In this document: one piece after another, positions 1 to 30,567 of the stretch
How the letters are laid out: each line of letters opens with the position of its first letter
Position numbering within the stretch: the stretch's first letter is position 1
Assembly (NCBI GenBank): GCA_021324635.1
Contig: JAJPIS010000050.1
Coordinates: forward strand, 1-64,000
Direction of reading: 5' to 3'
Length of the DNA: 64,000 nt
DNA from: Gemmatimonadota bacterium
GTDB lineage: Bacteria; Gemmatimonadota; Gemmatimonadetes; Gemmatimonadales; Gemmatimonadaceae
Notes under the pieces: model-generated
Databases searched by the model: none
Told to the model about the DNA's origin: nothing
Seen by the model: the letters and a program-made list of their open reading frames with translations, nothing else
Made by a program: the position numbers and the translations under genes

Positions 1-983
1 CCAGTGCGCCCGCGCCCGCCTCCCCCGCCGCCGCCGCCGCTGACCCCTCCCCCGCCCCCCAAGCCGCCGAAGCCGCCGAACCCCCCGCCCCCCCCGCCCC
101 CGCCCCCTCCCCCGCCGCCGCTCCATCCGCCGCCTCCCCAACCGCCGCCGAAGGGGATGAAGATCGGCAGGCACCCGCCGCGCGCCCCGCCCCGCCGAGC
201 GAGGATGCTGAGCACGAAGTAGGCGATGATGAGGAGGAGGAAGAGCTTGCCTGGCGAGAGGCCGCCGCCGTTGCCGCCGGCGCTCGGCCCTGGAGGCGGC
301 GCCGACGCTCGGAGGGTCGTGTCGAGGGCGAAGTGGAACTCCTGCGCGAACCGCTGGGCCGTACGGTAGGCGACGAGCGTCAGGCCATCGCCGTAGTCCC
401 GCTGTCGGAAGTACGGGATCGCCTCACGGCAGATGTCGCCGGCGTCGGCGTCGGTGATGAACCCTTCGGTCCCCTGGCCGGTGGCGACGTAGCAGTGCCC
501 GCGACCGTCGGAGCTGGTCTCCTTGGGGACGAGCAGAATGACGGCGCCGGCGTTGCGGGTGGGGTCCCCGGGGGCGCCGATCTTCCCGACCTTCCACTGG
601 CGCCCGATCTCGAGGCTGATCTCGTTCGGCGACCGGTCGTCGATGTCGGGCAGGGTGACGACCGCGATCTCGCCCCGCGACTTGTCCCGCACGTCGGCGG
701 CGATCTGCTCGATGCGCGCGGCGGCGTCCGCGGGGATGACGTGCGCGAAGTCGTTGACCAGCCCGACCGGCGGCGGAATCCGGACGCCGGTGGCGGTGAC
801 CTTGGGCGCGCTCCCGGCCGTCCCCGACTGCGCGGCCTGGGTATTCGCGCTGTGCGCGGCGAGCGACCGAGGACTGGCCGCGAGGGTCAGGACGACGAGT
901 ACGCCCGTGACCGGGGGCCGACGCGTGCACCGTCGCGGCGCCGCGCGACCGTGAGGCGCTCGGCGCCCGGAAAGAAGTGTCAC
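1..983 (-). CDS. TPM-domain (YgcG-type) membrane-anchored protein, C-terminus cut by window edge
   Basis: Read on the minus strand from a GTG at 983; the frame stays open to base 1, so the C-terminus lies outside. An N-terminal hydrophobic segment (LVVLTLAASPRSLAAHSA) acts as signal or anchor. It is followed by the start of a TPM domain (PPPVGLVNDFAHVIP) with IAVVTLPDIDD and ILLVPK strands, then one TM segment (KLFLLLIIAYFVLSILARR) and a Gly-rich tail typical of the YgcG family. TPM domains are found in envelope proteins, often next to LemA; their role is unsettled (thylakoid acid phosphatase, PSII repair homologues). No LemA gene is visible here. A TACTAT hexamer ends six bases before the GTG and no Shine-Dalgarno is seen, so the message may be leaderless. 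The start is the main uncertainty. Confidence 0.8.
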   Translation of the reverse strand, partial: MTLLSGRRAPHGRAAPRRCTRRPPVTGVLVVLTLAASPRSLAAHSANTQAAQSGTAGSAPKVTATGVRIPPPVGLVNDFAHVIPADAAARIEQIAADVRDKSRGEIAVVTLPDIDDRSPNEISLEIGRQWKVGKIGAPGDPTRNAGAVILLVPKETSSDGRGHCYVATGQGTEGFITDADAGDICREAIPYFRQRDYGDGLTLVAYRTAQRFAQEFHFALDTTLRASAPPPGPSAGGNGGGLSPGKLFLLLIIAYFVLSILARRGGARGGCLPIFIPFGGGWGGGGWSGGGGGGGGGGGGGFGGFGGLGGGGGVSGGGGGGGGRGRT

Positions 984-1420: not shown

Positions 1421-3928
1421 ATGAACACGTTGACACGCTCTCCGAGACGGCACGAGGCCAGCGGCGTGGACGCACCGCGCCCAACGACCCCGGCCGGTGT
1501 CGCGACCGCCGAGCTGGCGGTCACCGGGATGACGTGCGCGTCGTGCCAGGCGCATGTGCAGAACGCGCTCGCACGCCACCCCGGCGTGCACGACGCGAGC
1601 GTCAATCTCATGACGGGCAGCGCCCGGGTGGCCTACGATCCGGCCCGGACGTCCCCCGTCGCCCTCATCGATGTCGTGCGCGACACCGGCTACGACGCCA
1701 CGCTGCCGCACCCGGCGCGCTCGGTGGCCGACGCCCAGGCCGACGAGGACGAGGCGCGTGAGGCGGAGCTCCGCGATCTCCGACGCAAGGTGATCGGGAG
1801 CGGCGTGGCGGGCGTGGTCGCGATGGCGCTCTCGATGCCGCTCATGACGGCCCGCACGGCGCCCCACCCTGGCGCGATGGGGCCCACGAGCGATCCGCTC
1901 ATGCGCTGGGCGGCGCGCGTGATCGCCCCCTCGTACCAGCACGTCATGCCATGGGCGTACGCGATCCCGCCGGCCGTGCTCTCGGCCGGGCTCCTGCTGC
2001 TGACGGCAGCCGTCATGATCTGGGCGGGCCGCGACTTCTACACCGGGGCCTGGTCGGCGCTGCGTCACCGGACCGCGAACATGAACACGCTGGTCGCCGT
2101 CGGGACGGGGGCCGCCTTCCTCTACTCGGCCGCCGCGACGCTCGCGCCGGACTTCTTCGCCCGCCGCGGGCTCGCGCCCGATGGCTACTACGAGGCGGTC
2201 ATCATCATCACGGCCCTGGTCCTCGCCGGCACGATGCTCGAGGCACAGGCGAAGCGACGGACGGCGGCGGCACTGCGCCGACTGATCGCCCTCCAGCCCA
2301 GCACGGCCCGCGTGCTCCGCGACGGAGATGAAGTGGACGTGCCGGTCGAGATGGTCCGCGCCGGCGATGTCATCGTCGTCCGCCCGGGCGAGCGGCTGCC
2401 GGTGGATGGCGAGGTCGTCGCGGGCGCGAGCGCCGTCGACGAGTCGATGCTCACGGGGGAGTCGATGCCGGTCGAGAAGTGCCCGGGCGATCGGGTGATC
2501 GGCGGGACGCTCAACCGCACGGGCTCGTTCCGCTACCGCGCGACCACGCTGGGTGCCGAGAGCGCCCTCGCCCGCATCGTCCGCCTCATGCGCGAGGCAC
2601 AGAGCTCCCGGGCACCGATCCAGCGCCTGGCGGACCGCGTCAGCGCGGTTTTCGTGCCCGTCGTCCTCGCCATCGCGGTCGTCACGTTCGCGGCCTGGAC
2701 GATCGCCGGCGGCCCCGGCACGATGGTCCGCGCGGTCGCCGCCGCCGTCGCCGTACTGGACATCGCCTGCCCGTGTGCCATGGGGCTCGCCGTCCCGACG
2801 GCGGTCATGGTCGCCACCGGTGCGGGGGCGGAGCTCGGGGTGCTCATCAAAGGCGGCGAAGCGCTCCAGCGGGCCGGAGACCTCGACACGATCGTGCTCG
2901 ACAAGACCGGGACGGTGACCGAGGGGCGGCCGACGGTCACCGACGTGGTGCTCGCCGGGCCGGGCTGGTCGGAGCTCGAGCTGCTGCGTCTCGCCGCGGC
3001 CGTCGAGCGCTCATCCGAGCACCCGCTGGCCGACGCGATCGTCACGGCCGCACGGACGCGCGGGCGGGTCACGGGCGTGAGTGCCGGCCGAGACGCGAGC
3101 GCCAGCGGAGATCTCCCGCGGGCCGAGATGTTTCAGTCGGTGACGGGCCACGGCGCGCTCGGCGTGGTGGCCGGACGCGCGGTCGCGATCGGCAACGAGG
3201 CGTTGATGCGCGACTACGCGATCGATGTCGGTCCGCTCCGCGCCGACGCCGACCGCCTGGCCGGCGAGGGGCGGACGCCAGCGTTCGTCGCCGTCGACGG
3301 CGCACTGGCCGGCGTCATCGGCATCGCCGATGCGATCAAGCCCACGTCCCGTTCGGCGGTCGAGGCGTTCCGCCGGATGGGGCTCGACGTCGTCCTGTTG
3401 ACCGGCGACACGCCGAGGACGGCGGACGCGATCGCACGCGAGGCGGGCATCGCGCATGTCGTCGCGGGCGTGCACCCCGAGGGCAAGGTCGCCGAGATCG
3501 CGCGGTTGCAGGGTGCGGGGCACGTGGTCGCCATGGTCGGCGACGGGGTCAACGACTCGCCGGCGCTGGCGCGCGCCGATGTCGGGATCGCGATGGGCAG
3601 CGGCGCCGAGGTTGCCATCGAGGCGGGCGACATCACGCTCATGCGGAACGATCTGCACGGGGTCGTCGCGGCGGTCGCGCTCAGCCGGCGGACGATGCGC
3701 ACGATGAAGCAGAACCTGTTCTGGGCGTTCATCTACAATGTCATCGGCATCCCGATCGCGGCCGGCGTGCTCTATCCGGCGTTCGGCCTGCTGCTCAGCC
3801 CCGTGCTCGCGAGCGCCGCGATGGCCCTGAGCTCCGTCAGCGTCGTCGGCAACAGCCTGCGGCTCCGCCGCTTTCGACCGCCGCGCGCCGGCGCCGCCGT
3901 TCCGATCGCGCTGGTTCCGGCACCGTGA
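1421..3928 (+). CDS. copA: Copper-exporting P1B-type ATPase CopA
   Basis: 835 residues from ATG 1421. An earlier in-frame ATG at 1331 lies inside the palindromic repeat and is rejected. One N-terminal heavy-metal-associated domain carries MTCASC (Cys39, Cys42). Further landmarks in order: the actuator TGES loop ([11 protein letters not shown]), the membrane CPC copper motif (about 450-452), the phosphorylation site DKTGT (Asp494), SEHPLADAI of the nucleotide domain, and the hinge GDGVND (about 707-712). This set defines Cu(I)-exporting ATPases that pump copper across the inner membrane using ATP. The stop overlaps the csoR start (GTGA), so the two genes are co-translated. Expression is probably derepressed by copper through the operator at 1283-1297. 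Confidence 0.95.
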
Positions 3929-4323
3929 CTCGGACGAGCACGCGGCCCACGGCCCGCCCGCCCGCGCCCTCCGCGCCGTCGCCCGTCGCCAGCTGCGGGT
4001 GCGGCGTCGCCCGCGACCCGGCCGCGCCGGACGGGCGGAAGGCGGTCGCGGTCGATGCCGATCTCAAGGCGCGGAACCTCAAGCGTCTGCGCCGGGTCGA
4101 GGGGCAGATCCGCGGGATCCAGAAGATGATCGAGGACGACCGGTACTGTGCCGACATCATGATGCAGGTGTCGGCCGTCCACGAGGCGCTCCGTTCCGTC
4201 GGTCGAGAGCTGATGCGGAACCACCTCCGCCACTGCGCGACGCACGCGATCAGGGAAGGGCCGGAGCAGGCGGACGCGATGTACGATGAGCTGCTCGATC
4301 TCATGTACACGCACAGCCGGTGA
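3925..4323 (+). CDS. csoR: CsoR-family copper-sensing repressor
   Basis: 132 residues from GTG 3925, overlapping the copA stop. After a Pro/Ala-rich N-terminal 40 residues with a CGC motif comes the all-helical DUF156 core ([20 protein letters not shown]). The copper ligands of CsoR proteins are present as Cys75 (DRYCADIM), His100 and Cys104 (NHLRHC). The DNA-binding Arg/Lys of helix 1 are also present. Cu(I) binding releases DNA. Linkage to copA and a matching operator support autoregulation of the operon. Formaldehyde (FrmR) or nickel (RcnR) sensing is less likely given the full C-H-C set. Confidence 0.92.
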
Positions 4324-4401
4324 TCCGTACGCGGCACGATGTCGGTCACGGGACGGTGTGACATCCCGGTCGGCATCCCGCGCGAAATGCCGGTGCACGT
4401 C

Positions 4402-4466
4402 GTAGGGGCGGCATTCATGCCGCCCGCGACCCGCATTCGCGCGGATGCCTGGCCCGGCATTCATGC
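4402..4466 (-). repeat. Palindromic intergenic repeat, copy B (inverted)
   Basis: Starts GTAGGGGCGGCATTCATGCC and is close to the reverse complement of copy A over 65 bp, including the internal GCGGATGCCTGGCCCGGCAT. Copies A and B therefore bracket copA-csoR as inverted repeats. Confidence 0.85.
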
Positions 4467-4515
4467 CCCCCGCGACCCGCATCCCGCACCGATGCCGGCC
4501 GCCCGGGAATGCCGC
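4457..4515 (-). repeat. Palindromic intergenic repeat, copy C (partial)
   Basis: Shares its first GGCATTCATGCC with the end of copy B, then continues CCCCGCGACCCGCATCCCGC and decays. It looks like a degenerate tandem neighbour of copy B. Confidence 0.6.
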
Positions 4516-4580
4516 CCGGGTGTGGCATTCCGCGCCCGCGCCGGGCCCCGGGTATGCCGAACGGCAACGGCGAACGGCGG

Positions 4581-4642
4581 GAATGCCGGGCCACACATCC
4601 GTGCGGGATGGGATTCGCGGGCGGCATGAATGCCGCCCCTAC
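4581..4642 (+). repeat. Palindromic intergenic repeat, copy D
   Basis: Runs GAATGCCGGGCCACACATCC through GCGGGCGGCATGAATGCC to CGCCCCTAC. Same orientation as copy A. Confidence 0.8.
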
Positions 4643-4690
4643 GGAACACCACGTTGCGATGCGCCCACGCCGGCACCGTCATCCCACCCG

Positions 4691-4740
4691 CCGTCACCCG
4701 CCGTCCCCCGCCGTCCCCCGCCGTCCCCCGCCGTCCCCCG
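4691..4740. repeat. Five-copy 10-bp tandem repeat
   Basis: Unit CCGTCCCCCG, the first copy with one substitution (CCGTCACCCG). A length-variable simple repeat in non-coding DNA. Confidence 0.9.
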
Positions 4741-4761
4741 GCGCCCGTCGTTGCCGTTTCC

Positions 4762-4800
4762 GGTGCAGGGGTAATTCGCGTCGCGAATTGCCCCTGCACC
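4762..4800. repeat. 39-bp near-perfect palindrome of a second type
   Basis: Arms GGTGCAGGGG-T-AATTCGCG and CGCGAATT-G-CCCCTGCACC around a single central T, with one T/G mismatch. There is no T-run and the centre is one base, so it resembles an extragenic palindromic element more than a terminator. Confidence 0.8.
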
Positions 4801-4848
4801 ATCCAACAACCCCTGTTCCTTTGGTGGCCGCGGGACGCGGACCGCGTG

Positions 4849-4909
4849 AAATGCCGGCCAGGCATCGGTGTGGGATGCGGGTCGCGGGCGGCATGAATGC
4901 CGCCCCTAC
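4849..4909 (+). repeat. Palindromic intergenic repeat, copy E
   Basis: Runs from GAAATGCCGGCCAGGCATC to GCATGAATGCCGCCCCTAC. It ends exactly at the base before the stop codon of the next minus-strand gene. Confidence 0.85.
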
Positions 4910-5881
4910 CTACCGGCTGAAATTGAACGAGAACTCGAACGTGCCGGCGCCGGTGGTGGAGGGCGGGAGGCGCCATGCCCGCGCCTTCTCGAGGATGCAG
5001 CTTTCGACTTCGGCCGAGCCCGCGCCGGACCATGTCCGGCGGGCGACGTTCGCGTTGGTGACCGCGCCGCCGGCGGCGACGGTGAGCGCGACGGTCACAC
5101 TGCCGGCAAGATCGGGATTGACCTTGAGTCCGTACTCGTCATAGCAGAAGCGGAGCTGCGATTGGTGCTCGCGGACCGCGGTCCCCAGCGCTCCCACGTC
5201 ACGCGACGGTCCGCCGAGGCCGGGCGCGTCGACCGCGCGCGGGGCCGAGACGGTGACGCCCTGGTGCCCGATCCCCCCGCCCCCCGAGACGCCGCCGATC
5301 GCGCTCACCGCGCCCCCGCCGCCCATGTCGCCACGGCCCGGCGTGCGCTCCCCCTGCCCGCCCTGGCCATAGGCGAGCACGGTCTTCCCGGCCGCGGCGC
5401 CGGACCCAGGACCGGCGGCGGCCACGGCCACCCCCCGGAGCACGTTCGACACATCACCGACCGGCCCGGCTGCCGGCGCCGCGCCGCCAAAGGCTGCCCC
5501 GATGGCCGCCGCGCGCGCCGCCGCCCGCGCCGCCTCGCGCTCCGGTGCGGCCGCGGGCTTCGGTGCCGACGGAGCCGCCGGTCCGCCGGGTGCGCGGTGT
5601 CGCTCCACGGGCGCCGCGGGCGCGGGGAGGGGCGGCGGAGACTCGAATGTGACGGTGACCGGTCGCTCCTCGGGTGAGAGAAGGTGCGTCACGTCGGTGC
5701 GCGGACCGAAGAGCACGAGCAGTAGCCAGACGAGACCGAGGGCGCCGGAGGCGGCCCACGACCCGAGAAGGGCGCGCCCCTCCTCGTCCGCCAGCTCGTA
5801 GCGGAGGTTGCGGGTGAAGGTCGCCTCGTCGACGCGCCACCCGCCGCCCGAGCGCGACTCCGCGCGCCGCTCAGACGCCAT
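4910..5881 (-). CDS. TonB-like protein with AgmX/PglI C-terminal domain
   Basis: 323 residues. A short cytoplasmic N-terminus is followed by one TM helix near residues 38-60 (GALGLVWLLLVLFGP). Then comes a long Pro/Ala/Gly-rich periplasmic linker, and from about residue 220 a domain with RAVDAPGLGGPSRDVGAL, QLRFCYDEYGLKVNPDLAG, SVTVALTVAAGGAVTNANV and VESCILEKARAWRLPP. This is the conserved AgmX/PglI-type C-terminal domain of adventurous gliding proteins, related to TonB transducers. Two Cys (FCYDEY, ESCILEK) may form a disulphide. It is the last gene of the nine-gene run and its start overlaps the ExbD-2 stop, so it is the probable partner transmitting force from the TolQ/TolR-like complex to the outer envelope. 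Confidence 0.85.
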   Translation of the reverse strand: MASERRAESRSGGGWRVDEATFTRNLRYELADEEGRALLGSWAASGALGLVWLLLVLFGPRTDVTHLLSPEERPVTVTFESPPPLPAPAAPVERHRAPGGPAAPSAPKPAAAPEREAARAAARAAAIGAAFGGAAPAAGPVGDVSNVLRGVAVAAAGPGSGAAAGKTVLAYGQGGQGERTPGRGDMGGGGAVSAIGGVSGGGGIGHQGVTVSAPRAVDAPGLGGPSRDVGALGTAVREHQSQLRFCYDEYGLKVNPDLAGSVTVALTVAAGGAVTNANVARRTWSGAGSAEVESCILEKARAWRLPPSTTGAGTFEFSFNFSR

Positions 5882-6410
5882 CGGTCACCCGGCGGACCTG
5901 GAGCGAGATGTTCTTGAACCCGGCGAGCCGCGCGGTCTGCATGATGCGCGACAGGAGATCGTACCGCATGCTCCGGTCGCCCTGGATGGCGAGCGGCGCC
6001 TCGACGGGCCCGATCCCGGGCTCGGCGCTCGCCGTCCGAATGGAGTCGGCCTTGAGCCGTAGCGCCGAATAGAGCGCCGGGATGAGCAGCGGCTGCCGCG
6101 GGTCGCTCGACTCGGCCTGCGCGGCGTCGAGCGTGCTCATGACGGGATTCCCGGCGAGCGTCACCTGACGGCCGACCCCGAGGGTCAGTTGCTGCAACGC
6201 GTTGCTCCCGACCCGCGCCTCGGGCAGCGTGACGCCGGGCGTCACCGGCGCCAGCTCGCCGACGGTGGCGGTCGTCAGCGCGAAGAACACGATCGACACA
6301 AGGGTGTCGACGAGCGGCACGAGATTGAGCTCGGCGAACTTGAACTTCGCGAATTGCTGGTGCCGGCGTCCCTCCCGCACGGCACGGGCCCGTCCGACGC
6401 GGCGCCCCAC
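5871..6410 (-). CDS. ExbD/TolR-family protein 2
   Basis: 179 residues from GTG 6410, three bases after the stop of ExbD-1. It has the usual architecture: a basic N-terminus, one TM helix carrying the conserved Asp (NLVPLVDTLVSIVFFALTT), and a periplasmic domain ending with LLSRIMQTARLAGFKNISLQV. The TM Asp is the proton-relay residue in ExbD/TolR/MotB-type stators. It differs from its neighbour in the periplasmic part, so the two are likely non-redundant subunits of one motor with the upstream ExbB/TolQ protein. The pairing of one TolQ with two TolR proteins is the arrangement of Myxococcus AglR-AglQ-AglS. Confidence 0.88.
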   Translation of the reverse strand: MGRRVGRARAVREGRRHQQFAKFKFAELNLVPLVDTLVSIVFFALTTATVGELAPVTPGVTLPEARVGSNALQQLTLGVGRQVTLAGNPVMSTLDAAQAESSDPRQPLLIPALYSALRLKADSIRTASAEPGIGPVEAPLAIQGDRSMRYDLLSRIMQTARLAGFKNISLQVRRVTDGV

Positions 6411-6413
6411 CGG

Positions 6414-6962
6414 CTACGCGCCCCCCGCGGCGGTCAGCGCGCCCGGCACTCCGACACGGGCCCGGGTCCCGAGTGCCACGTTCGGGAACTGCGCCATCTT
6501 GAGCCGCTCGAGCACGTGCACGATGTCGTCGTAGCTCACGTCGTCGGCCGGAAGGACCAGCACGTCGTTGTTCTGGGGATACTGCCGGTGGATGTCGCGC
6601 ATGAGCGCCTGGAGGGTGTCGAGCTGCGCTACCCCGAGCCCCACGATCTCCCGCCGGTACCCGCCACCACCCGAGTGCTCGACGAGCATCCGGTCCGCCT
6701 GCACCCGCACCGCGAGGAGCAGGGCAAGCTGGTGCTCGGGCTGTGCCGCCGCCACCTGCTGCGCGGTGACGACGACGGGCGGCAGGGCGAGGTCGAACGA
6801 GGTCAGCTCGGCGAGCAATCCCTGGTACGACACGAGACTGAAGAACACGATCGACGTCAACACGTCGATGAGCGGCACGAGATTGATGCCGCCGTGCCCG
6901 AGCGACGAGGCGGCGCGCTCGGCGCGGCGGACTCTGGCGCGGTGGAAGCGCGAGCCGGGCAT
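6414..6962 (-). CDS. ExbD/TolR-family protein 1
   Basis: 182 residues. Basic N-terminus, then a TM helix with the conserved Asp (GGINLVPLIDVLTSIVFFSL) and a periplasmic domain with the ExbD-like end NDVLVLPADDVSYDDIVHVL. It lies 51 bp downstream of the ExbB/TolQ gene and just upstream of ExbD-2. Expected role: proton-driven inner-membrane stator subunit that moves envelope partners such as the AgmX-type protein. Its C-terminal PNVALGTRARVGVPGAL is not matched in ExbD-2. Confidence 0.88.
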   Translation of the reverse strand: MPGSRFHRARVRRAERAASSLGHGGINLVPLIDVLTSIVFFSLVSYQGLLAELTSFDLALPPVVVTAQQVAAAQPEHQLALLLAVRVQADRMLVEHSGGGGYRREIVGLGVAQLDTLQALMRDIHRQYPQNNDVLVLPADDVSYDDIVHVLERLKMAQFPNVALGTRARVGVPGALTAAGGA

Positions 6963-7013
6963 GGGCCGTTACGACGAGCGACGGGGGCGGACGGGGACTG
7001 GCCGCGCGGCGGA

Positions 7014-7652
7014 TCAGCGCCCGATCTGGACGTCCGGCCGCTCGATCAACGTGTTGATGAGCCGCGCGGAGAACTCGTCCACCTGCTCGATGATCGACTC
7101 GGCCTGCGACGCCAGGTACGAGTGGGTGACGGTGAGCAGAATGGCGGTGGCGAGGCCGAAGCCGGTGGCGTTCAGGGCGATCGCGATCCCCGACGCCAGT
7201 CGCTCGGATCGGGTCGCCGCCGAGGCGGCCGCGACCGACGCGAACGCGCCCTTGAGGCCGTAGATCGTTCCGAGCAGTCCGATCAGGGTCGCGACGTTGG
7301 CCAGCATCGGCAGGTACTGGAGACGCCGGGTGAGGCGGGGGATGACCGACAGCGAGGCGGCGTCGGCGACGCTCTGGAGGTCGGCCTCCTCGCGGCTCTT
7401 GCTCCGGAGGATCAGCAGCCCGATGTCGGGCAGCGGCGCATGCGACTGCGCACAGAGGCGCATCGCGTCGTCGGTCTTCTGCGCCCGCACGAGCTGCATC
7501 ACCCGCTCGACAAAGGCCGTGGCGTTGATCCGCGACCGCACGATGACGACGTAGAATCGCTCGAGGAAGATCGCCAGGCCGGTCAGGGCGACGACCAGGA
7601 TGAAGTACATGACCGGTCCGCCGGTCCGGAACCACTCGAGCGCGGGTCGCAT
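7014..7652 (-). CDS. MotA/TolQ/ExbB-family proton channel protein
   Basis: 212 residues from ATG 7652, chosen because it forms an ATGA overlap with the upstream gene's stop and begins right before the first TM helix (GGPVMYFILVVALTGLAIFLE). A long cytoplasmic loop precedes the signature MotA/TolQ region with LPMLANVATLIGLLGTIYGL and a third TM, IAIALNATGFGLATAILLTV. With the two ExbD proteins it should form a pentamer-dimer type proton-driven motor in the inner membrane. Only one such protein is present for two ExbD proteins. Confidence 0.92.
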   Translation of the reverse strand: MRPALEWFRTGGPVMYFILVVALTGLAIFLERFYVVIVRSRINATAFVERVMQLVRAQKTDDAMRLCAQSHAPLPDIGLLILRSKSREEADLQSVADAASLSVIPRLTRRLQYLPMLANVATLIGLLGTIYGLKGAFASVAAASAATRSERLASGIAIALNATGFGLATAILLTVTHSYLASQAESIIEQVDEFSARLINTLIERPDVQIGR

Positions 7653-8113
7653 CACTTCTCCCTCGGAGCTTTCGGTGAAGGGCCCGCCGAGCCGGCGGCC
7701 GGGACGTGGCCGGCGGACAGCGTGCCGGGACTGGACGCGGAGACGGGTGTCGTGCCGGGCGACATCACGCGGGTCGAGAGGTCCGCTCGCGGAGGACGAT
7801 GCCCGCTGTCGGCCGGCAACGGCATCAGGGTCGCGGTCGCACCCGCCTCCGGCGAGAGGTCCGGCGCGAGCTCGAGCGGCGCGAGCAGCGCGGCCCAGAA
7901 ATGCCGGTCGAAGAACGCCGGGGTCAGCACGTCGCGGGAGAATACCGGAACCTGCCGCGGCCGAACGGTCACGACCTGCGGCGTCGGGACCTGCCCACGG
8001 ATCTCGATCGGCTGCGATCGCCGCGCCTGGGCCTGGCCAGCCCGCGGCAGCAGGAGCGCGATGCACCCGACGATCACCGCCCACGTGGCGCGCCGCACGG
8101 GCTCACGGGTCAT
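7652..8113 (-). CDS. Small secreted Pro-rich protein of the envelope-machine operon
   Basis: 153 residues from ATG 8113, which overlaps the stop of the giant TPR gene by 11 bp; longer frames upstream run into that gene. Signal peptide VIVGCIALLLPRAGQAQA, then a segment RGQVPTPQVVTVRPRQVPVF and FFDRHFWAALLAP, then a low-complexity Pro/Ser/Ala tail. No known family is recognised. Coupling on both sides argues that it is a structural or assembly part of the same periplasmic machine. Confidence 0.7.
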   Translation of the reverse strand: MTREPVRRATWAVIVGCIALLLPRAGQAQARRSQPIEIRGQVPTPQVVTVRPRQVPVFSRDVLTPAFFDRHFWAALLAPLELAPDLSPEAGATATLMPLPADSGHRPPRADLSTRVMSPGTTPVSASSPGTLSAGHVPAAGSAGPSPKAPREK

Positions 8114-11100
8114 CTGCCACCGTCCCACGCACGCCGTCGCGTGCCCGGTCGACCCACTGGTTTGCGATCCCCTGCTGACCGGCCTTGTCGACGAGGGCCT
8201 GCCAGGTCGCCTTCGCCTGCTGGTAGTAGACGTCGGCCTGCCGAGCCGCGCCCTGCCGCGCCGCGGCGCGCTCGGCATCGCTCAGCGAGGCCGGAAGCTG
8301 CACGCTGGCGAGGAAGGTGCCGTACTCCCACTGCGCGAGCCCGATGTAATAGGTCCCGGCCGCGAGGTAGCCGGGATCGCCGGACTCGATCGCCCGCGTG
8401 AAGTCGCGCGTGACGATCGCGAGCAGCTCCTGCTTGCGGGCCGCGGCACGCTTGACCCCGGCCGCCGTGAGCTGCGCGGGGGTGGCGATCACCAGCCGCA
8501 ACGGCCGGTACGTCCGGAACGCCTCGAGACCGGCGGCGAAGGCGGCCCGCCCGGCACGAGTCGCGCAGTCGGCGCGCAGCTCGGCCGGCGGGCTGGCGGT
8601 GCACAGGACGGCGAGATCGGCGGCGGCCGCGATCGTATCGCCGCTCGCCGTCAACAGCCCGACACGTTGCGCGCGGGCCTGCCCGGCCCGCGGGTCGGTC
8701 GCGTGGTGCCGCGCGAACGCACCGTACGCCCGGGCCGCCGCCGCCGTGTCGCGCGCCTCGAGGAAGGTCTCGGCCGCGTCGTACTCCGCGTCGGGAGCGC
8801 GCCGGTCGTGCGGGTAGTCGGCTGCAAATCGCTGGTAGGCGGCCGCCGCATCCGTCTTCTTGCCGAGCGAGTCGAGCCGCACGGCGAGCCGGATCTCGGC
8901 GTCGGCACGCCCCGACCAGGTGGGGTCGCCCGCGATGAGCCGCCGGAGCGCGTCGACCGACTCGTCGCCGCGCCCGATCTGCGCCAGGAGATCGGAGTAC
9001 AGGGTCTGATACTGCCGGCGGTATCGGTAGAGCGGGTACTGGGTGACCAGACGCTGGGCGAGGTCGGCCGCGTGCGTGCGCGCGACTCGCGAGCCGTCGT
9101 CGTCGCCCCGGGCGCGCGCGGCGCTGTCGGCGAGCAGGTACGTCTCGACGGCGTCGCGCAGCGCGTCGGCTGCCTTCTCGGTCGTCGGGTGGGCGTCGGC
9201 ATAGGCGACATACACGTCGCTCGCGGCCCGCGCATATTCCCCCGCCCTGACGAGCGAGTCGGCGTAGCTGGAGGCCGCTGAGGTCTGGATCCGCTGGACC
9301 GAGTCGGCGAGGGCGCGCCGGCCAGCTCGCTGCGCGACGAGCGACGCCGAGTCCCACTGCGCCTGCGCGTCGGCGTACTTGCCGTCCCTGTACAGGGCAT
9401 CGCCGACGAGCTTGGCGGCCGTCGGCGCGTACGGATCGCGAGGGTACTCGGCCGCGTACTGCCGGAACGCGGCCGCCATGACGGCCCATCGCCCGGCCTC
9501 GGACGCGCGTCGCCCCTCCTCGATCAACGCCCGCTTGGCGACGTCGCTGCCGGGATACCGTGCCGCGTACTGGGTGATGGCCGAGAAGAGGGAGTCCTGG
9601 AGCGTGCGATCGCCGGCGTGCGCGGCGAGCGCCGAGTCGTACGCCACGATCGCGTTCTGCGCCGCGCGTTGCTCGGCGGCCGCCGCGCCGCGCGCCGAGT
9701 CGCCCGGGAAGCCGTACGCCGCCCGCTCGTACTCGGCGCCGGCCCGCCCGTAATCTCCGGTGCCGAACAGGGCCTCGGCGTAGTACGTCTCGACCGCGCG
9801 GGCGCTGTCGGAGGTACCGTAGTCCGCCATGTAGCGGGCATAGAGTCGGGCGGCTTCGGCGTAGTGCACCCGAGCCAGCGAGCTGCCGGGACCGCTCGGC
9901 GCTGGCGGCGGAGGGTGAGCGGCGCGGGAGCGCCCGTGGCCGGCGCCCGTGGCCGTGGTGGGGCTCAGGGCCTCGGCTCGGGCCAGCTCGTACTGCGCGC
10001 TCTGGCGCAGCGCGTCCTCCCGCGCCGCCTCGGCCGGCCGGGCGAGCGGCTGGTTGGCGACGGTCCAGGAGAAGCCCGGCGTGAACCGCTCGACGAGCGC
10101 GAGTCGAGCCGCCTGCGCCTTGTCCGGCTCGAGCGTGCGGTTCTGATAGATGTCGACCACGTCCCGCGAGACGGCGAGTGCGCCCGAGTCGGTGGGCACC
10201 GCGACCAGCAGCTCCTGATAGGCCTGCACGGCACGCGTGAAATCGCCCTGGTCGCGGAGGCGCACCGCGACCCGGCGGAGCACCTGGCTCTTGTACGACG
10301 TGTCGGACCGACCGACGAAGTACTGATCGAGCGCGTCCGGGCCGCCGACCTGCGTGAGCGACACCGCCATGTAGTCGAGCGTCTCGTCGCGAAGGCCGAG
10401 CCGAGCCTGCCGCTCGGGCGGCAGCCGATCGTAGGCTTCGATCAGGCGGCCGAAGACGTCGACCGCCTTGCGGTAGGCGTCGAGGTTCTGCTGGGATCCC
10501 TGGCTGTAGTACGACCATCCCAGCTTGTAGAGCGCGAGGTAGTAGAGATCGCTCGTGACCGCCGCCCCGGCGGCCGCCCGCTCGTATGCGGCCGCCGCAC
10601 TCCCGAAGAGTCCACGCCGGACGTCCTCGCGCGCGCCGCTCGCCAGCTCGAATCGCGCGTCCCCGAGCCGGAACCACGACTCGACCTGGAGTGGCGAGCC
10701 GTCGGCGGCGCTCACCCGCTCGAACATGGACGCAGCGTCGGCGTAGCGCCCGTCCGCCGCGTACAGCGTCCCCAGGGTGTAGGCGGCGCCGTCGAGCTGC
10801 GGGAAGGCGGGGTACCGCCGGATCAGCTCCTCGAACCGCGCGATCGCGGGACCGTAGTCGGGGTGCCCCTGCTGGTCGGGGACACCGCGCACCGCTTCAC
10901 CGATCGCCCTCCGCTGGGCGGCCGCGAACCGCTCGTCGGCCCGACGCACGAGCAGCTCGCCCAGCTCGAAGAGCGCGCTCGCCCGCGCCGCGCTGGCCGG
11001 GTAGCGCGCAACGACTCGCTCGAGGTCGGCCAGCGCCGAGTCGGCGGCCAGGGGCTCGTCGCCAGGGGTGGCGCTGGCGGCGGTGGCGCGGAAGAATCCG

Positions 11101-13328
11101 GCGCTCGCCGCCCCGAACGCGGCGGCCTCCTGATCGCGACGGAACGCGGCCGCGAGCATCTCGGCCCGGCGCCCCAGGGCGCGCGCGACGGCGGCGGTGA
11201 GGGCCGCAGCCGCCTGGTCCTGCGCGGCGGAGGCGGCGACGAGCGTCCGCCGGAGCACCTCACGGGTCGTATCGTCGGCGGACACCCGGGCCACCTGGTC
11301 ATCGACCGCCGCCTCGCCGGCGGCCACGGCGCGGCGGGTCTGCACGATGAGCTGACGGGTGCGTTCGCCGCGCAGCCGGATCGTGTCGCGGAGCGCGAAG
11401 GCCGGGTGATTACCGATCGCGCGAACGAGCCCGCGGTCGACGGCGTCGGCGAGATGGGCGTACGTGGCCGCGATCTCCGCTTCCCGGCGCAGCGCCTCCC
11501 GATCGTCGGCCGTTCCGACGGCGGCGACGGCGAGTCGCACGCTGTCGATCTGCCGCAGGTTCTCCGAGGCGAGCGACCGCGTGCCGGTGACCTGCGGCTC
11601 GAACATCCGATGCAGCCGGCCCCCGGCGGCATCGACCGTCTCGGTGACGCGGGCCAGTGAATCCTCGATGGCCGCGACTCGACCGAGTGTGGGGGCGAGG
11701 CTGTCGCCGGCCACGCCGATCGCCTGGCGCGTATGCTCGAGCACCAGCAGTTGGAGCCCGACATTGTCGCGATAGGCCCGGGCGCTCGCGTCCGCGACGG
11801 CGACGGCGACATCGGCGTCGTGCAGCGCACGTACACTGCGCGCCAGTTGCGCGCGGGCCTCGGTGGCGGCCGCGTCCGGCGGGTCACCGGCGAAGATCGC
11901 CCGCCGGAGCAACGCTTCGTCCGACGGCGTCATGACGTCGCCGTCCCGCCGCTGCGCCGCGTGGACGGCCGAATCGATGCGCGCGCCGACCGCGGCGACG
12001 GAGAGTACCGCCGGCGGGGTGTGGGCCGCATCGCCCGCTCCGGCCCGAGGGCCTCCCACCGCGCGAAGGGCAGCCCGATCGGCGGCCTCGCTGTCCGACA
12101 TCGCGAGCGTCTTGCCCAGCGTCACGTCGGGGAGCAGGAGCAGGTCGGCCGCGCGCGCCTCGACGAGCGCACGGGCGGCGCTGTGCGGGTCGGCGCTCCA
12201 CTGCCCGAAGCTCGTCTCCTCGGCGCCAGCCAGATCGCCCACGGCGCGGAAGGCGCCCTGCGCATCGGCCGCGTGCTGCGCGTCGAGCATCGCCTGTGCG
12301 GCGAGCAGTCGGCTCTCCTCCTGCTCCGGGAGCTGCGGATACCGGTCGGCGAGATCCCCGAACGCCTTGGCGGCCCGGTCGGGATGCGCGCTCCGCGCCA
12401 GCACCCAGGCGCGTATCAGGCGCGCCTGGACGTCCGAGCCGCTCGCCGGGTCGACGGCGTCCACGAGCGCGATGGCGCGGTCCGACTGGCCGGCGTCGGC
12501 CGCGAGCTCGGCGGTCGCGACCCGCAACTGGTTCCCGGCTTCGCCGCCCGTCGAGGGCAGCCCCGCATCCAGGGTCGGGAGCGCGGCCGCGGCGCGACTA
12601 CTGTCGTCGGCGATGCCGCCGGCGCCCCGCGTGGCGCTGGTGCTCGAGACGGCGGTCATGTAGCGGGCGTAGTCGGCGATCGGACCGGCGCCCGGCGCGC
12701 GTTGCGCGCCGGCGAACCCGGCCCGGGCGCCGGCGGAGTCCCCGCGCCGGTACGCGACGAGTCCCCCGATAAGGGCGGTGACGGCCGACCGATCACTGTC
12801 GGGCAAGCCGGCGGCGATCGCCGCAGCGGTCTCGATGTCGCCGGCGCGGTACGCGGTGACGAGGAGCTGTGCGCGCAGCACGCTGCCGTACCGCGCCCCG
12901 GCCGGACCCGCCAGCACGCGCCGCGCGGTCGCGGCGAGACTGTCGGCCATCGCGAGGCGGAAGAAGCACTCGGCCATGAGAAAGCGCCGGTCTTCCTCGT
13001 CCAGCCGGCGGTCGGACGGACCCGTGCCGGCGGTCGTCCCGGCCGAGTCTCCGCCGACTCCTGCCGCCGCACGAAGGCGCGCGAGGGCGGCGGCCGGACG
13101 GCCGGTGACCATCTCGTAGAGCGCGATGCGGATCTCGGCGTCGCCGGCCCGCACGCCGTCGAGCTCCGGCACGAGCGCCGTGTCGGCGCGGAGCGCGGTA
13201 CGGTCCCGGCCCTGGGCGGCGGCCGGCGCCACGGACGCGGCAGTGGTCACGAGGAGCCCCGCGACAGCGACGAGCGCGAGCCGTCTCGATGATGGCGACG
13301 TCCGCGCACTCCGCTCCCGGTGGTTCAC
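8103..13328 (-). CDS. Giant secreted TPR-repeat protein (1741 residues)
   Basis: The N-terminal signal peptide (LALVAVAGLLVTTAASVAPAAAQG) is followed by helical repeats along the whole length. Clear TPR/YbgF-type units include AAAFRQYAAEYPRDPYAPTA, GDALYRDGKYADAQAQWDSA and AVQAYQELLVAVPTDSGALA, spaced with hydrophobic-Ala helices. A central part near residues 480-720 is more coiled-coil-like. Expected location is the periplasm, as a protein scaffold. TPR proteins of this size inside TolQ/TolR/barrel clusters are known from Myxococcus gliding (GltI-like) machinery; homology here is inferred from architecture only. It lies between the coiled-coil protein and the secreted small protein in the same operon. 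Confidence 0.88.
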   Translation of the reverse strand: MNHRERSARTSPSSRRLALVAVAGLLVTTAASVAPAAAQGRDRTALRADTALVPELDGVRAGDAEIRIALYEMVTGRPAAALARLRAAAGVGGDSAGTTAGTGPSDRRLDEEDRRFLMAECFFRLAMADSLAATARRVLAGPAGARYGSVLRAQLLVTAYRAGDIETAAAIAAGLPDSDRSAVTALIGGLVAYRRGDSAGARAGFAGAQRAPGAGPIADYARYMTAVSSTSATRGAGGIADDSSRAAAALPTLDAGLPSTGGEAGNQLRVATAELAADAGQSDRAIALVDAVDPASGSDVQARLIRAWVLARSAHPDRAAKAFGDLADRYPQLPEQEESRLLAAQAMLDAQHAADAQGAFRAVGDLAGAEETSFGQWSADPHSAARALVEARAADLLLLPDVTLGKTLAMSDSEAADRAALRAVGGPRAGAGDAAHTPPAVLSVAAVGARIDSAVHAAQRRDGDVMTPSDEALLRRAIFAGDPPDAAATEARAQLARSVRALHDADVAVAVADASARAYRDNVGLQLLVLEHTRQAIGVAGDSLAPTLGRVAAIEDSLARVTETVDAAGGRLHRMFEPQVTGTRSLASENLRQIDSVRLAVAAVGTADDREALRREAEIAATYAHLADAVDRGLVRAIGNHPAFALRDTIRLRGERTRQLIVQTRRAVAAGEAAVDDQVARVSADDTTREVLRRTLVAASAAQDQAAAALTAAVARALGRRAEMLAAAFRRDQEAAAFGAASAGFFRATAASATPGDEPLAADSALADLERVVARYPASAARASALFELGELLVRRADERFAAAQRRAIGEAVRGVPDQQGHPDYGPAIARFEELIRRYPAFPQLDGAAYTLGTLYAADGRYADAASMFERVSAADGSPLQVESWFRLGDARFELASGAREDVRRGLFGSAAAAYERAAAGAAVTSDLYYLALYKLGWSYYSQGSQQNLDAYRKAVDVFGRLIEAYDRLPPERQARLGLRDETLDYMAVSLTQVGGPDALDQYFVGRSDTSYKSQVLRRVAVRLRDQGDFTRAVQAYQELLVAVPTDSGALAVSRDVVDIYQNRTLEPDKAQAARLALVERFTPGFSWTVANQPLARPAEAAREDALRQSAQYELARAEALSPTTATGAGHGRSRAAHPPPPAPSGPGSSLARVHYAEAARLYARYMADYGTSDSARAVETYYAEALFGTGDYGRAGAEYERAAYGFPGDSARGAAAAEQRAAQNAIVAYDSALAAHAGDRTLQDSLFSAITQYAARYPGSDVAKRALIEEGRRASEAGRWAVMAAAFRQYAAEYPRDPYAPTAAKLVGDALYRDGKYADAQAQWDSASLVAQRAGRRALADSVQRIQTSAASSYADSLVRAGEYARAASDVYVAYADAHPTTEKAADALRDAVETYLLADSAARARGDDDGSRVARTHAADLAQRLVTQYPLYRYRRQYQTLYSDLLAQIGRGDESVDALRRLIAGDPTWSGRADAEIRLAVRLDSLGKKTDAAAAYQRFAADYPHDRRAPDAEYDAAETFLEARDTAAAARAYGAFARHHATDPRAGQARAQRVGLLTASGDTIAAAADLAVLCTASPPAELRADCATRAGRAAFAAGLEAFRTYRPLRLVIATPAQLTAAGVKRAAARKQELLAIVTRDFTRAIESGDPGYLAAGTYYIGLAQWEYGTFLASVQLPASLSDAERAAARQGAARQADVYYQQAKATWQALVDKAGQQGIANQWVDRARDGVRGTVADDP

Positions 13329-13353
13329 GAGCGTCCGCCTGCGGGGACCGCGG

Positions 13354-14199
13354 TTACGGCGACCGATTGCCGCGGCTGGTCCACGTGCTCAGCCCGAGCT
13401 GGCCGTTGTGCACGGCGAACTGCACATAGGTGATCGCGTCGGCCGGCACCTCGACGGCGGCGCCCGTGGAGATCGTCGCCCCGGCGAGCGACGCCGAGAG
13501 CGTCACGGCGTGGGTGGCCGGGAGCACGTTGGAGTCGTAGACCTCATCGACCGCCCCGGCGTTCAGGGCGTCCAGCGCCACGGGGCCGTACCGCCGGTGC
13601 GTCGCGGGCGCGCTGTCGATCTGCACGACCACGCTGTCGAGGCGGCCGGCGGCGCCCGTGGAGTCGAGTCGGACGAGCACCACCAGCTCGGCCGCGGCAC
13701 GGCGCCGCACGGCGTCGGCCAGGGCGAGGAACCGATCGCGCTGGGCGAGGAGGTTGTCCTGCGACACGGTGAGCACCGAGTCGAGCGATCGGAGCGCGGT
13801 GGTCTCGTGGCTGAGCAGCAGCTCACTCGCCCGCTGGGCGGTCGCGCGCGCGGCGGCGCTATCGACGCGCGATTCCAGGTGAATGCGCTCGGCGCGGAGC
13901 TCCGCCAGCTTGCGCTGCGCCTGCCGGATGTCCTGGGTCGCCGCCTGGCGCCGCGCGAGGTACTCGCGCTCGGTGCCGGCACCCGCCGCCGCCGACGACG
14001 CCGTGTCGGGACGGCGCGGGGTCGTGTCCTGCGCGGGGGCCGGGGTCGTGCCCTGGGCAGCGGCGGGAGCCGCGGTGAGGGCGGCCGCGACTGCCCCCGC
14101 GAACGCCACGACAAGGGCCGATGTGAGCCCCACCGTGCGCGCGCCCAGGGGGCGAGGGCCGCTCGTCACCACGGCCGGCGCGGGCCGGCGGCCGGGCAT
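13354..14199 (-). CDS. Secreted coiled-coil protein
   Basis: 281 residues from ATG 14199, 17 bp after the stop of the preceding barrel gene; the frame is open further upstream only because that region codes in another frame. Signal peptide TSALVVAFAGAVAAALTAAPAAAQG, a Pro/Thr linker, then a long coiled coil starting REYLARRQAATQDIRQAQRK through LADAVRRRAAAELVVLV, and a C-terminal beta-rich domain ending ITYVQFAVHNGQLGLSTWTS. No family is recognised. Position in the run and the coiled coil suggest a periplasmic linker between the TPR protein and the barrel proteins. Confidence 0.75.
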   Translation of the reverse strand: MPGRRPAPAVVTSGPRPLGARTVGLTSALVVAFAGAVAAALTAAPAAAQGTTPAPAQDTTPRRPDTASSAAAGAGTEREYLARRQAATQDIRQAQRKLAELRAERIHLESRVDSAAARATAQRASELLLSHETTALRSLDSVLTVSQDNLLAQRDRFLALADAVRRRAAAELVVLVRLDSTGAAGRLDSVVVQIDSAPATHRRYGPVALDALNAGAVDEVYDSNVLPATHAVTLSASLAGATISTGAAVEVPADAITYVQFAVHNGQLGLSTWTSRGNRSP

Positions 14200-14216
14200 G
14201 ATGCGGGTCACACCGG

Positions 14217-15524
14217 TCACGGCGTTCGGCCGGCCGGGGGGCTGGCGGGTGACGGGGTGGGTGGGGCGGGTGGGGCGGCTGGGGTGGGTCGTGGCGTGGC
14301 CGACGGGTCGGCGGGGGCCATGCCGGCCGTCTCGGCCTCGACTCGACGGAGTCGCTCCTCGAGGCGGTGGAGCGCGTCGGTCTCCGTTCGGAGCTGGGTC
14401 TCCGCCTGCGCGCGGCGCTCCTCCAACTCGAGGAGGTTCTGCGCTTCGTAGCGGTGGATCTCGCCCTGCAACTCGACGATCCGCTCTTGCCGCTGCCCGA
14501 TCTCCGCCAGCAACAGCGCCTGCTGCCGGCGGAGGGTCGCCACCCGGTTCCGGAGGACGTCGCCGTGGACTATCGCGAACAGATTGCTCTGCCACCCGAT
14601 CGTGAAGTCGAGCTTGGAGTAGCGGTAGAGCGCCGACGTCGGGACGCTCGGCGCGAACCTCGGGCTGCCGGCCCCGAGCTCGGTCATGGCGAGCCCGGCT
14701 CGGAGACCGCGGTACCCGACATACGCGCCGGCATTGAAGTCCCAGGCGTTGTTCTCGGCCATGAGCGCGACAACGGTGTTCGGCGAGGGACGGACGTCCG
14801 CCTTGACGCCGTAGAACAGCCCGCCGGTGGCGTCGGCGGCGTATGTCCGCGTCGGCAGCGTGCCGTGGTTGGAGAAGAGGCCGTCGCCGTAGCCCAGGGT
14901 CAGGCTCACCCCGACGTCCGGCCAGGTGGGGCGCAAATCGGCGAGTGAGAAGCTCTTGGTCGCCACCCCGTACAGGGTGTTGGCGGTCGAGAAGCTCCGG
15001 TGTGAGGCGTCGGGGACGATGACCGGCGCCGACGCGCGGCCCGGACCGAGTGCCTGCTGGTATCCGAGCCCGAGGCGATCGATGTGGCTGTACGGCCCGA
15101 CATTCCGCATGCCGACGGCGACCGAGGGAAGCAAGCCGGCGGGCCGGCCGCGGAAGTCATCTTCGTTGAACAGGAGCGCCTGCCCGTAAAGGCCGTGCTC
15201 GAAGTCACTCGAGAGCAGGGACATCCCGAGCTCGGCACGGCCGAACAGCGCGACCTGGAGTGCGGCTGTCCCGGCGAGCGATCGGTGGTAGCTCGGGATG
15301 GCCGGCGTCGTCCGGAGCGACCGGGCGGCCCAGTCGAGCGCGAAATCGCCGGTGACGGGGGAGACCCACGCGGCCGGGATGTCGATCAGCCCCGACCCCC
15401 AGTTCAGGGTCTGCGGAAACTCGGTCTGGCCGTATCCGGTCCGGGCGCCGGCCGAGAGCGCGGCCATGACGACCGTGGCCACGATGACGGAGCGTCGCGT
15501 GGTGCAGCGCTGACGGCGTGTCAC
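14217..15524 (-). CDS. Outer-membrane beta-barrel protein with C-terminal coiled coil, paralogue 2
   Basis: 435 residues. Signal peptide (VIVATVVMAALSAGARTGYGQ) is followed by a barrel-like region of alternating strands with LNWGSGLIDIPAAWVSPVTG, GVSLTLGYGDGLFS and AENNAWDFNAGAYVGYRGLR. After the last strand a coiled coil (LRRQQALLLAEIGQRQERIV) ends in a Pro/Thr tail. It is clearly a paralogue of the adjacent upstream protein (shared GLID, AWVSP, GDGLFS, NxWDxNAG). Expected in the outer membrane with the coiled coil in the periplasm. The start overlaps the upstream stop by 4 bp. Confidence 0.82.
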   Translation of the reverse strand: MTRRQRCTTRRSVIVATVVMAALSAGARTGYGQTEFPQTLNWGSGLIDIPAAWVSPVTGDFALDWAARSLRTTPAIPSYHRSLAGTAALQVALFGRAELGMSLLSSDFEHGLYGQALLFNEDDFRGRPAGLLPSVAVGMRNVGPYSHIDRLGLGYQQALGPGRASAPVIVPDASHRSFSTANTLYGVATKSFSLADLRPTWPDVGVSLTLGYGDGLFSNHGTLPTRTYAADATGGLFYGVKADVRPSPNTVVALMAENNAWDFNAGAYVGYRGLRAGLAMTELGAGSPRFAPSVPTSALYRYSKLDFTIGWQSNLFAIVHGDVLRNRVATLRRQQALLLAEIGQRQERIVELQGEIHRYEAQNLLELEERRAQAETQLRTETDALHRLEERLRRVEAETAGMAPADPSATPRPTPAAPPAPPTPSPASPPAGRTP

Positions 15525-16879
15525 TCGGGCGTCTCACCCTGGAGGTGCCGCAGGCGCGCGTTCGCGCGCTCGATCGCATCGCGCTCCTGCTGGAGCTGAC
15601 GCTCGATCTCCTGCCGCGCCCTGGTGGCGTCGCCCTGCTCGCCCTGCTCGAGCTGGGCCAGCCTGCCCTGGAGCTTCGCGATCACGCGCTCGCGGCGATT
15701 GACGTCCGTCCGCAACTCCTGCTCTTCCCGCTCGAGAGCCGAGATCTGGGTCCGGAGCAGGTGGCCGCCGGCGACGTCCGCCAGGTTGCCGTTGTACCCG
15801 AAGGCGATGTTCCACTTCCGGTAGTTGTACAGATTGAGGCTCGACGCCCGGACGGCCGTGCCCTTGTCGAGCTCCGTCGCATAGAGCCCGGCGGTGAGCC
15901 CGCGCCACGTCCCCGTCACGCCCGCGTTCCAATCCCAGCCGTTGTTCTCGCCGACGAGCGCCAGGGCGGCGTTGCTCGAGAGGCGCGTGACCGCACGGGC
16001 CCCGAAGAAGAGTCCCCGGACGACGGTGCCGGACCGGTCGTAGGCGGCCCCGAGGCCGCCGTCGTCGCTGAACAGCCCGTCCCCGCCCCCCACCGTCAGG
16101 CTCAGGCTCGAGAGGGCAGGGCTGTTGATCGCGATCGACTTGGTCGCGACCGCGTAGAGCGTCGGCGCCGTATGGAAGTTCTTGAAGTAGGGCGGCGTGA
16201 CTTCGTGCGTGCGACCGGCGCTGTCCACCGTGACGTCGCTGCCGATCAGGTAGCGTTCCTCGTGCCCGAACGGACCGATGTTGCGGGCGCCCACGGCGAT
16301 CGCCGGGAAGAACGACGCGATCTCTCCGTCGCGCAGCGCGAGCACCTGACCGAAGAAGCCCCACTCGGGGTTGTTGCTGTAGAGCGAGACACCGACGGAG
16401 AAGCGTCGCATCCAGTGGGTGTCGAGCGCGAAGTTGCCGTTCCAGTGCTGCGGCGTGCCGGGCGCGCCCGGGGGCGCAAGCATGTGCGTCGCCCCGTACG
16501 AGAGCCAGAAGTCGGAGGAGCGCGGTGACACCCACGCGACCGGGTCATCGATCAGCCCGGTCCCGAAGTCGAGGGTCGGGCCGAATCCATCGGAGCTGCC
16601 CTCGATGGCCGGCGTGTCATGGGCGGGCGCAGGTGCCGCGGCGGAGGCGGGCGGCGTGGCCGGCGTGGCCGGCGTGGCCGGCGTGCCGGGCACAGTGGCC
16701 GACGCCTGGCCCTCGAGCGATGTTACCAGGAGCGCCACATGCAAGGCGACACCCGCGACCCAGGGCGCCAGTGGCGCGCGACGGCGCCCCCGCGCCAGTA
16801 CTCGCAGGAGCCCAGCGGAACCGACCCGCGCCGGGGGACCGTCGCGCCGCGCGGGGAAGACTGCGATCGTGTCTTGCAA
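15521..16879 (-). CDS. Outer-membrane beta-barrel protein with C-terminal coiled coil, paralogue 1
   Basis: First gene of the nine-gene minus-strand run. No ATG precedes the signal-like hydrophobic stretch (WVAGVALHVALLVTSLEG); TTG 16879 is used here, with GTG 16924 as the alternative, giving 452-467 residues. A linker with repeated PATPATPATP is followed by a barrel whose strands match paralogue 2: LDFGTGLIDDPVAWVSPRSS, GGGDGLFSDDGG, GENNGWDWNAGVTGTWRGL. It ends in a coiled coil (LEREEQELRTDVNRRERVIA). Divergent from the thioredoxin-like lipoprotein; the shared 100-bp spacer must hold both promoters. Confidence 0.8.
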   Translation of the reverse strand: MQDTIAVFPARRDGPPARVGSAGLLRVLARGRRRAPLAPWVAGVALHVALLVTSLEGQASATVPGTPATPATPATPPASAAAPAPAHDTPAIEGSSDGFGPTLDFGTGLIDDPVAWVSPRSSDFWLSYGATHMLAPPGAPGTPQHWNGNFALDTHWMRRFSVGVSLYSNNPEWGFFGQVLALRDGEIASFFPAIAVGARNIGPFGHEERYLIGSDVTVDSAGRTHEVTPPYFKNFHTAPTLYAVATKSIAINSPALSSLSLTVGGGDGLFSDDGGLGAAYDRSGTVVRGLFFGARAVTRLSSNAALALVGENNGWDWNAGVTGTWRGLTAGLYATELDKGTAVRASSLNLYNYRKWNIAFGYNGNLADVAGGHLLRTQISALEREEQELRTDVNRRERVIAKLQGRLAQLEQGEQGDATRARQEIERQLQQERDAIERANARLRHLQGETPE

Positions 16880-16976
16880 GGCAGATCCGTAGGCGCCTAT
16901 GATGTGTGTCCAAACCGGGCACACCCACTCCCGATGGACTCCCGATGTGCTCGGGCTCTCTCGTCCCAGACCCTCA

Positions 16977-29976: not shown

Positions 29977-30116
29977 TAAGTCGAAGCGAAACAAAGAGAT
30001 ACGGAGGTTGAGTAAGCAGACGTTTCGGCGTTTCTGGCGCGGCGGCGGTTCCGTAGTCACCCCGCGCCGCCGAACCGTCACCGCTGAACGGGCGGGCCAG
30101 AGGCGAATCGTGCGTG

Positions 30117-30160
30117 AAAATGCGAGACTCCGCGGTGCCGGGATGTCTCGCATTTTTTTT
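30117..30160 (+). terminator. Intrinsic terminator of the tRNA cluster
   Basis: Stem AAAATGCGAGAC with GTCTCGCA and a run of eight T; the loop can form an inner GC stem. Classic rho-independent terminator about 140 bp after tRNA-Arg. Confidence 0.92.
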
Positions 30161-30228
30161 CGTTCGCTATCGTGGCGGCTCATCGATTGCCCAGGAGCCG
30201 CGCAGGTGCCGACCAGAGACTCGTGGGT

Positions 30229-30543: not shown

Positions 30544-30567
30544 TTTCGGGTCCTACGCAACATGCAT

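Follow-up and report, generated by a model that had tools for sequence, protein, structure and literature searches.

How a TolQR-type motor is coupled to the cell surface is still debated for Myxococcus, in which the parts of the machine are encoded in several separate gene clusters, and gliding and sporulation use a common motor. In the Agl-Glt and Agl-Nfs systems of M. xanthus, one TolQ-like protein is combined with two TolR-like ones and with a transmembrane protein that has an AgmX/PglI tail; TPR proteins of the periplasm also belong to them, as do two paralogous barrels of the outer membrane, encoded beside the gene of a periplasmic partner (PMC3169522, PMC3858216, PMC4488436). The barrels GltA and GltB bind this partner, the TPR protein GltC (PMC4488436). 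A core complex, aglRQS-gltCDEG, was described in 2011 from gamma- and betaproteobacteria, Geobacter and Fibrobacter, while gltA and gltB were limited in the same survey to Myxococcales and Bdellovibrionales; Gemmatimonadota are not mentioned in its text (PMC3169522).

The same kinds of components recur in nine co-directional genes on the minus strand (4910-16924) of the DNA analysed here, the window, a stretch of 64,000 nucleotides at the beginning of one contig of a 4.1-Mb, 97%-complete MAG of a soil bacterium of the Gemmatimonadaceae. By description, this locus is also similar to the core complex, which forms a single cluster of motor, GltG-like and TPR genes outside gliding bacteria (PMC3169522). 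In contrast to the M. xanthus systems, all genes lie in one block and are known as genes alone, the barrels are larger and have coiled-coil tails, the AgmX protein lacks an FHA domain, and GltF, GltH, GltI and GltK are not recognizable in the block. Judged from gene content and conservation, it is well supported that the locus encodes one trans-envelope machine driven by the proton motive force. The initial annotation had placed such a machine outside Myxococcota; core complexes outside that phylum were already published in 2011, and therefore the novelty consists of a Gemmatimonadaceae variant with barrels of its own.

Organization of the locus

The order of the genes is Bar1, Bar2, CC, TPR, small, TolQ, TolR1, TolR2 and AgmX (Table 1). 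With starts refined by homology, the intergenic distances from Bar1 to AgmX are -4, 17, 25, -11, -4, 51, 3 and -11 bp. The start of Bar1 is uncertain, with candidates at 16924 and closer to 16810. All nine reading frames are present, and the composition of the set given in the initial annotation is borne out by the frames, the profiles and a barrel model. Its gene bounds hold for the nine genes as such, with refined limits for TolQ, the small protein and CC. Neither Pfam nor NCBIfam assigns the barrels, CC or the small protein to any family. A promoter and a terminator were looked for at the ends of the block on the minus strand, and none was found.

Table 1. Positions of the annotated features in the window and the evidence for each
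Feature	Position	Strand	Basis
TPM-domain protein, Gly-rich tail reaching the window edge	150..785	-	PF04536 1.2e-21
Metal-transporting ATPase and CsoR-like regulator insert, outside the machine	1323..4910	genes on plus	69-nt repeats
AgmX/PglI-tail force-transducer candidate	4910..5881	-	NF033768 1.8e-17; alignment
TolR2 (ExbD/TolR)	5871..6410	-	PF02472 2.7e-13; invariant Asp
TolR1 (ExbD/TolR)	6414..6962	-	PF02472 2e-9; invariant D33
TolQ/ExbB-type proton channel subunit	7014..7655	-	PF01618 1.6e-20; TolQ structures 2.9e-10
Small secreted protein, conserved IEIRGQVPTPQVVTVRPR motif	7652..8113	-	alignment
TPR, periplasmic TPR protein, 1741 aa	8103..13328	-	Pfam/NCBIfam profiles
CC, secreted, two long helices and transthyretin-like beta sandwich	13354..14199	-	alignment, AF2
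Bar2, paralogous 12-stranded outer-membrane barrel, helical hairpin 315-399	14217..15524	-	AF2 model, alignment
Bar1, outer-membrane beta-barrel with C-terminal coiled coil	15521..16924	-	alignment; clade support 0.95

The nine genes are part of a larger conserved locus, and in this respect the extent initially given was too short. Downstream of AgmX, relatives encode a TPM-domain protein, a lipoprotein whose tail is AgmX-like, and LemA; some of them have beyond AgmX an extra protein of about 237 residues, nucleotidyltransferase-like by eye and without a Pfam match. The TPM gene of the window is 55% identical to that of a relative. The lipoprotein and LemA of this genome are found at the end of another contig, C62, the last 88 bases of which match the first bases of the window, within the Gly-rich tail of TPM, at about 86% (score 64, against 23 for the best of 300 random segments), so that both contigs are most likely neighbours. 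The lipoprotein gives a high score in 13 of the 15 genomes with the operon and a comparable one in none of the other 282; in the two genomes without it, contig ends interrupt the locus. The tails of the lipoprotein and of AgmX are homologous (hhalign 98.8%, 5.8e-17).

In this species AgmX and TPM are separated by the metal-ATPase/CsoR segment, which lies on the opposite strand and is flanked by copies of a 69-nt repeat (1323-1391, 4575-4643 and 4842-4910; 83-90% identical). The end of the last copy coincides with the AgmX stop codon, which gives the segment the look of an insertion. A sulfate permease gene occupies the same interval in a second genome of the genus.

Conservation and distribution

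The complete block is found in identical order in 12 loci, the window and 11 others (L028, L029, L031, L032, L034, L042, L043, L077, L079, L080 and L082), further loci being cut by contig ends. Its named relatives are from Gemmatimonadaceae MAGs. Because identical genes recur in identical order, the arrangement is not due to chance. Among 297 Gemmatimonadota genomes that are at least 80% complete, the C-terminal half of TPR has a strong match in 15. TolR2 matches strongly in 14 of them and in none of the remaining genomes of the family; the fifteenth, G035, has its locus split over contigs and a weak TolR2 match. Tandem barrels likewise occur in 14 of the 15 TPR genomes and nowhere else in the family. 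The exception is here G021, which keeps CC, TPR, the small protein, TolQ, both TolRs and AgmX and has no barrels, either at the locus or elsewhere in the genome. Part of the function is therefore independent of the barrels. Together with the invariant TolR aspartate described below, the conserved gene order and the near-perfect co-occurrence of TPR, TolR2 and barrels in the 297 genomes speak for one self-contained machine, as had been proposed; when it was asked whether the TolQR-AgmX half is usually unlinked from the barrel and TPR half, the linkage held with G021 as single exception. In G021 the machine exists naturally in a version that has no barrels; CC and the neighbouring genes are separated there by about 1.1 kb in which the operon strand carries no obvious gene (12650-13850 of locus L078).

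The block spans several genera and several different chromosomal settings, and it is patchy inside the genera g13 and g19. It thus behaves as though lost or transferred in one piece. TPR is a single chain in some genera, and in several others it is divided over two secreted chains of about 750 and 1000 residues. The conserved block contains no fixed gene for an adhesin, a polysaccharide or a regulator. Genes for an EAL protein, a KDO transferase and a DsbA-like protein adjoin the block in 7 to 8 loci; they were considered as parts of it and rejected, as they are absent from the other chromosomal settings. The EAL-domain protein, a member of the c-di-GMP phosphodiesterase family, is encoded at 19135-20376 of the window, adjoining the KDO transferase, and recurs beside the block in 7 loci as a feature of one of the chromosomal settings.

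The motor proteins

Profile searches recognize ExbD twice and MotA_ExbB once. The aspartate in the transmembrane helix (D33), a feature of the ExbD/TolR proton channel, is invariant in all 33 TolR1 and TolR2 sequences, and TolQ orthologs align along their full length with 58-82% identity. Both TolQ and the TolRs are closest to the Tol-Pal families. The same genome contains elsewhere a full Tol-Pal set (G000:C116) and an ExbB-ExbD-ExbD-TonB set (G000:C55), named by gene order and sequence, which indicates that the locus is a dedicated extra motor.

AgmX has one transmembrane helix, a linker rich in proline and glycine, and a tail with two nearly invariant cysteines. This tail matches the AgmX/PglI C-terminal domain model with 63 bits (cut-off 40). 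Such tails are widespread, with matches in 50 of 59 genomes of the family, 17 of them above the cut-off. In the force transducers TonB and TolA, binding to the motor involves an SxxxH motif in the transmembrane helix. This motif is absent from all 17 AgmX orthologs, and the coupling of AgmX to TolQ may therefore be different. Tol-Pal and ExbBD-TonB share with the locus the TolQ/ExbB and TolR/ExbD families and a TonB-like tail; unlike them, the block has no TolB, Pal, receptor or SxxxH motif.

Outer-membrane and periplasmic proteins

The AF2 model of Bar2 (pLDDT 81.5) has 12 strands, with a long helical hairpin on the periplasmic side. Its best fold match in the PDB is KdgM (Z 17.3 over 159 residues), and other small barrels also score high, among them FapF with Z 16.9. 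KdgM, NanC and FapF may have the 12-stranded barrel fold in common with the operon barrels, whereas the latter have a C-terminal periplasmic coiled coil, occur as tandem pairs beside a motor, and display no sequence similarity to these proteins. Searches of PDB sequences gave only chance matches for the barrels, with no match to KdgM or NanC, and likewise for CC and AgmX. CC is modelled with a pLDDT of 80 and has weak fold matches, its beta sandwich resembling among others the C-terminal domain of AlgF. In the TPR protein, profile searches detect TPRs of the YbgF/BamD type.

Bar1 and Bar2 form reciprocally monophyletic groups (support 0.95 and 0.84). On this phylogeny they go back to one old duplication that is retained wherever barrels occur, and the separation into two clades suggests that both barrels are needed. 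In about 54 genomes, of which nearly all belong to family f5, the barrel profile also picks up single proteins, the match being confined to their barrel part. Out of five long stand-alone barrels, three contain an OmpA domain (PF00691, best 2.4e-17), and no TolQR genes are found beside the stand-alone barrels of f5 in ten inspected loci. By their shared barrel sequence, operon barrels and stand-alone porins are of common ancestry. The operon barrels have a coiled coil where many stand-alone relatives carry a peptidoglycan-binding OmpA domain, and it is hence probable that the motor, and not the wall, is what they are coupled to; the exchange presumably went from OmpA to coiled coil. The f5 genomes themselves (loci L134-L143) encode 1 to 3 such proteins each, with a barrel that has no Pfam name; the C-terminal domain is OmpA in some of them and a different one, also unnamed, in others.

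Proposed mode of action and alternatives

From their families and invariant residues, TolQ and the two TolRs would form a proton channel and motor in the inner membrane. AgmX would be anchored there by its single helix, with its Pro/Gly-rich linker and TonB-like tail spanning the periplasm and conveying force outwards. The TPR protein or proteins, CC with its coiled coil and beta sandwich, and the small protein may constitute a periplasmic scaffold, on which, through CC and TPR, the coiled-coil arms of the barrels would most likely dock. The two barrels, 12-stranded and apparently non-redundant, would be the outer-membrane end of the machine. For AgmX, the lipoprotein with its tail of the same type may be a receptor or counterpart. 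The output would in the first place be a force-driven motion of the barrel complex with attached surface material, and in the second place an energized opening of the barrels. Complex formation, the transmission of force and its direction, the mobility of the barrels and the cargo are elements that we infer. As a whole, motor-coupled barrels that move surface material, or else gated barrels, seem to be the best explanation of the locus, to which a probability of about 0.5 can be given. It is weakened by the barrel-less G021, by the SxxxH motif missing from AgmX and by the fact that no gene fixed in the block points to a cargo. By analogy with the described systems, the machine might serve motility, cargo transport or polymer handling.

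Two other functions have to be weighed against this explanation. The locus could encode an outer-membrane channel or exporter energized by the proton motive force, in which AgmX gates both barrels in a TonB-like manner to let a polymer or protein pass, TPR and CC acting as secretion scaffolds as in the export of alginate or cellulose. The closest folds of Bar2, the oligosaccharide porins KdgM and NanC and the amyloid exporter FapF, are in line with this, as is, weakly, the AlgF-like sandwich of CC. However, the fold matches of small barrels are unspecific, no family search recognizes a TonB-dependent receptor domain, and synthase, polymerase, glycosyltransferase and substrate genes are all absent from the conserved block, which makes an exporter rather unlikely. 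Envelope maintenance or tethering of the Tol-Pal type, with a motor that draws outer membrane and lipoprotein to the wall and a surface that stays static, would account for the nearest relatives of TolQ and TolR, the AgmX-like tail of the lipoprotein and the YbgF/CpoB-type TPRs. It is nevertheless improbable in view of the complete Tol-Pal set present elsewhere in the genome, the absence of TolB and Pal from the locus, and the occurrence of the block in just 15 of 297 phylum genomes, most family members living without it.

As to its origin, the block might be a true member of the Agl-Glt/Nfs lineage that was acquired horizontally and to which local barrels were added, a descent that is compatible with motor-coupled barrels as the mechanism. 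The parts list is similar (TolQ, two TolRs, an AgmX/PglI tail, large TPRs), and the succession of two paralogous barrels in tandem and a periplasmic protein recalls GltA, GltB and GltC (PMC4488436), with the core complex as a further parallel (PMC3169522). On the other hand, the full GltG equivalog model gives AgmX 40.6 bits against a cut-off of 650, through the tail alone. The barrels moreover have relatives within Gemmatimonadota, and GltA and GltB measure 256 and 275 residues as against about 370-440 for Bar1 and Bar2. Such a descent is hence doubtful. A link to GltG beyond the tail was rejected, since tail-less AgmX fragments do not match GltG. The tail appears to be the sole sequence tie to Agl-Glt/Nfs, the remaining parts being compared by published description, and the Agl-Glt/Nfs-type identity put forward in the initial annotation is not supported. 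It is tentatively conceivable that Gemmatimonadaceae possess a proton-driven surface-transport machine of their own, assembled from TolQRR-AgmX and two local porins in which coiled-coil arms replaced OmpA, leaving the outer-membrane end free to be moved; an Agl-Nfs-like machine would then have arisen independently, and the phylum would have its first example.

In this locus, what appears to be a complete machine is encoded by a single block, and its outer-membrane part has relatives among stand-alone porins. From the exchange of OmpA for a coiled coil, a concrete hypothesis can be framed for the way in which a static porin could become coupled to a motor. If surface material is moved, a widespread uncultured soil group would gain surface transport, which is unreported for this group in the literature searched.

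A similar plan on a plasmid

The TolQ profile has no match in viral contigs, and relatives of TolQ and TolR1 were absent from plasmids at E 1e-5/1e-3. When plasmids were searched at E 10 with a consensus TolQ, a cluster with a similar plan came up on pMBL96 of Vibrio alginolyticus (NZ_CP013488.1): barrel, coiled-coil protein, large helical secreted protein, small proteins, TolQ, TolR, TolR and a Pro-rich transmembrane protein. Its TolQ is 33% identical (6e-21), one of its TolRs lacks the aspartate, and its barrel and coiled-coil protein have no sequence similarity to those described here. Because the likeness in sequence is confined to TolQ and TolR, pMBL96 has a similar plan and is not a relative of the whole. 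The succession of barrel, coiled coil, TPR-like protein, TolQ, TolR, TolR and TonB-like protein may be a general layout. On this mobilizable plasmid, the TolQ-TolR-TolR-TonB-like cluster (3615-15727 of locus L104) has Ig-domain adhesins on one side and a LapG-type C93 protease on the other, which suggests an adhesin system linked to a motor. In the window itself, the region 30000-34000 shows a decrease in G+C from about 0.72 to 0.62 and many short ORFs, and has the look of a genomic island.
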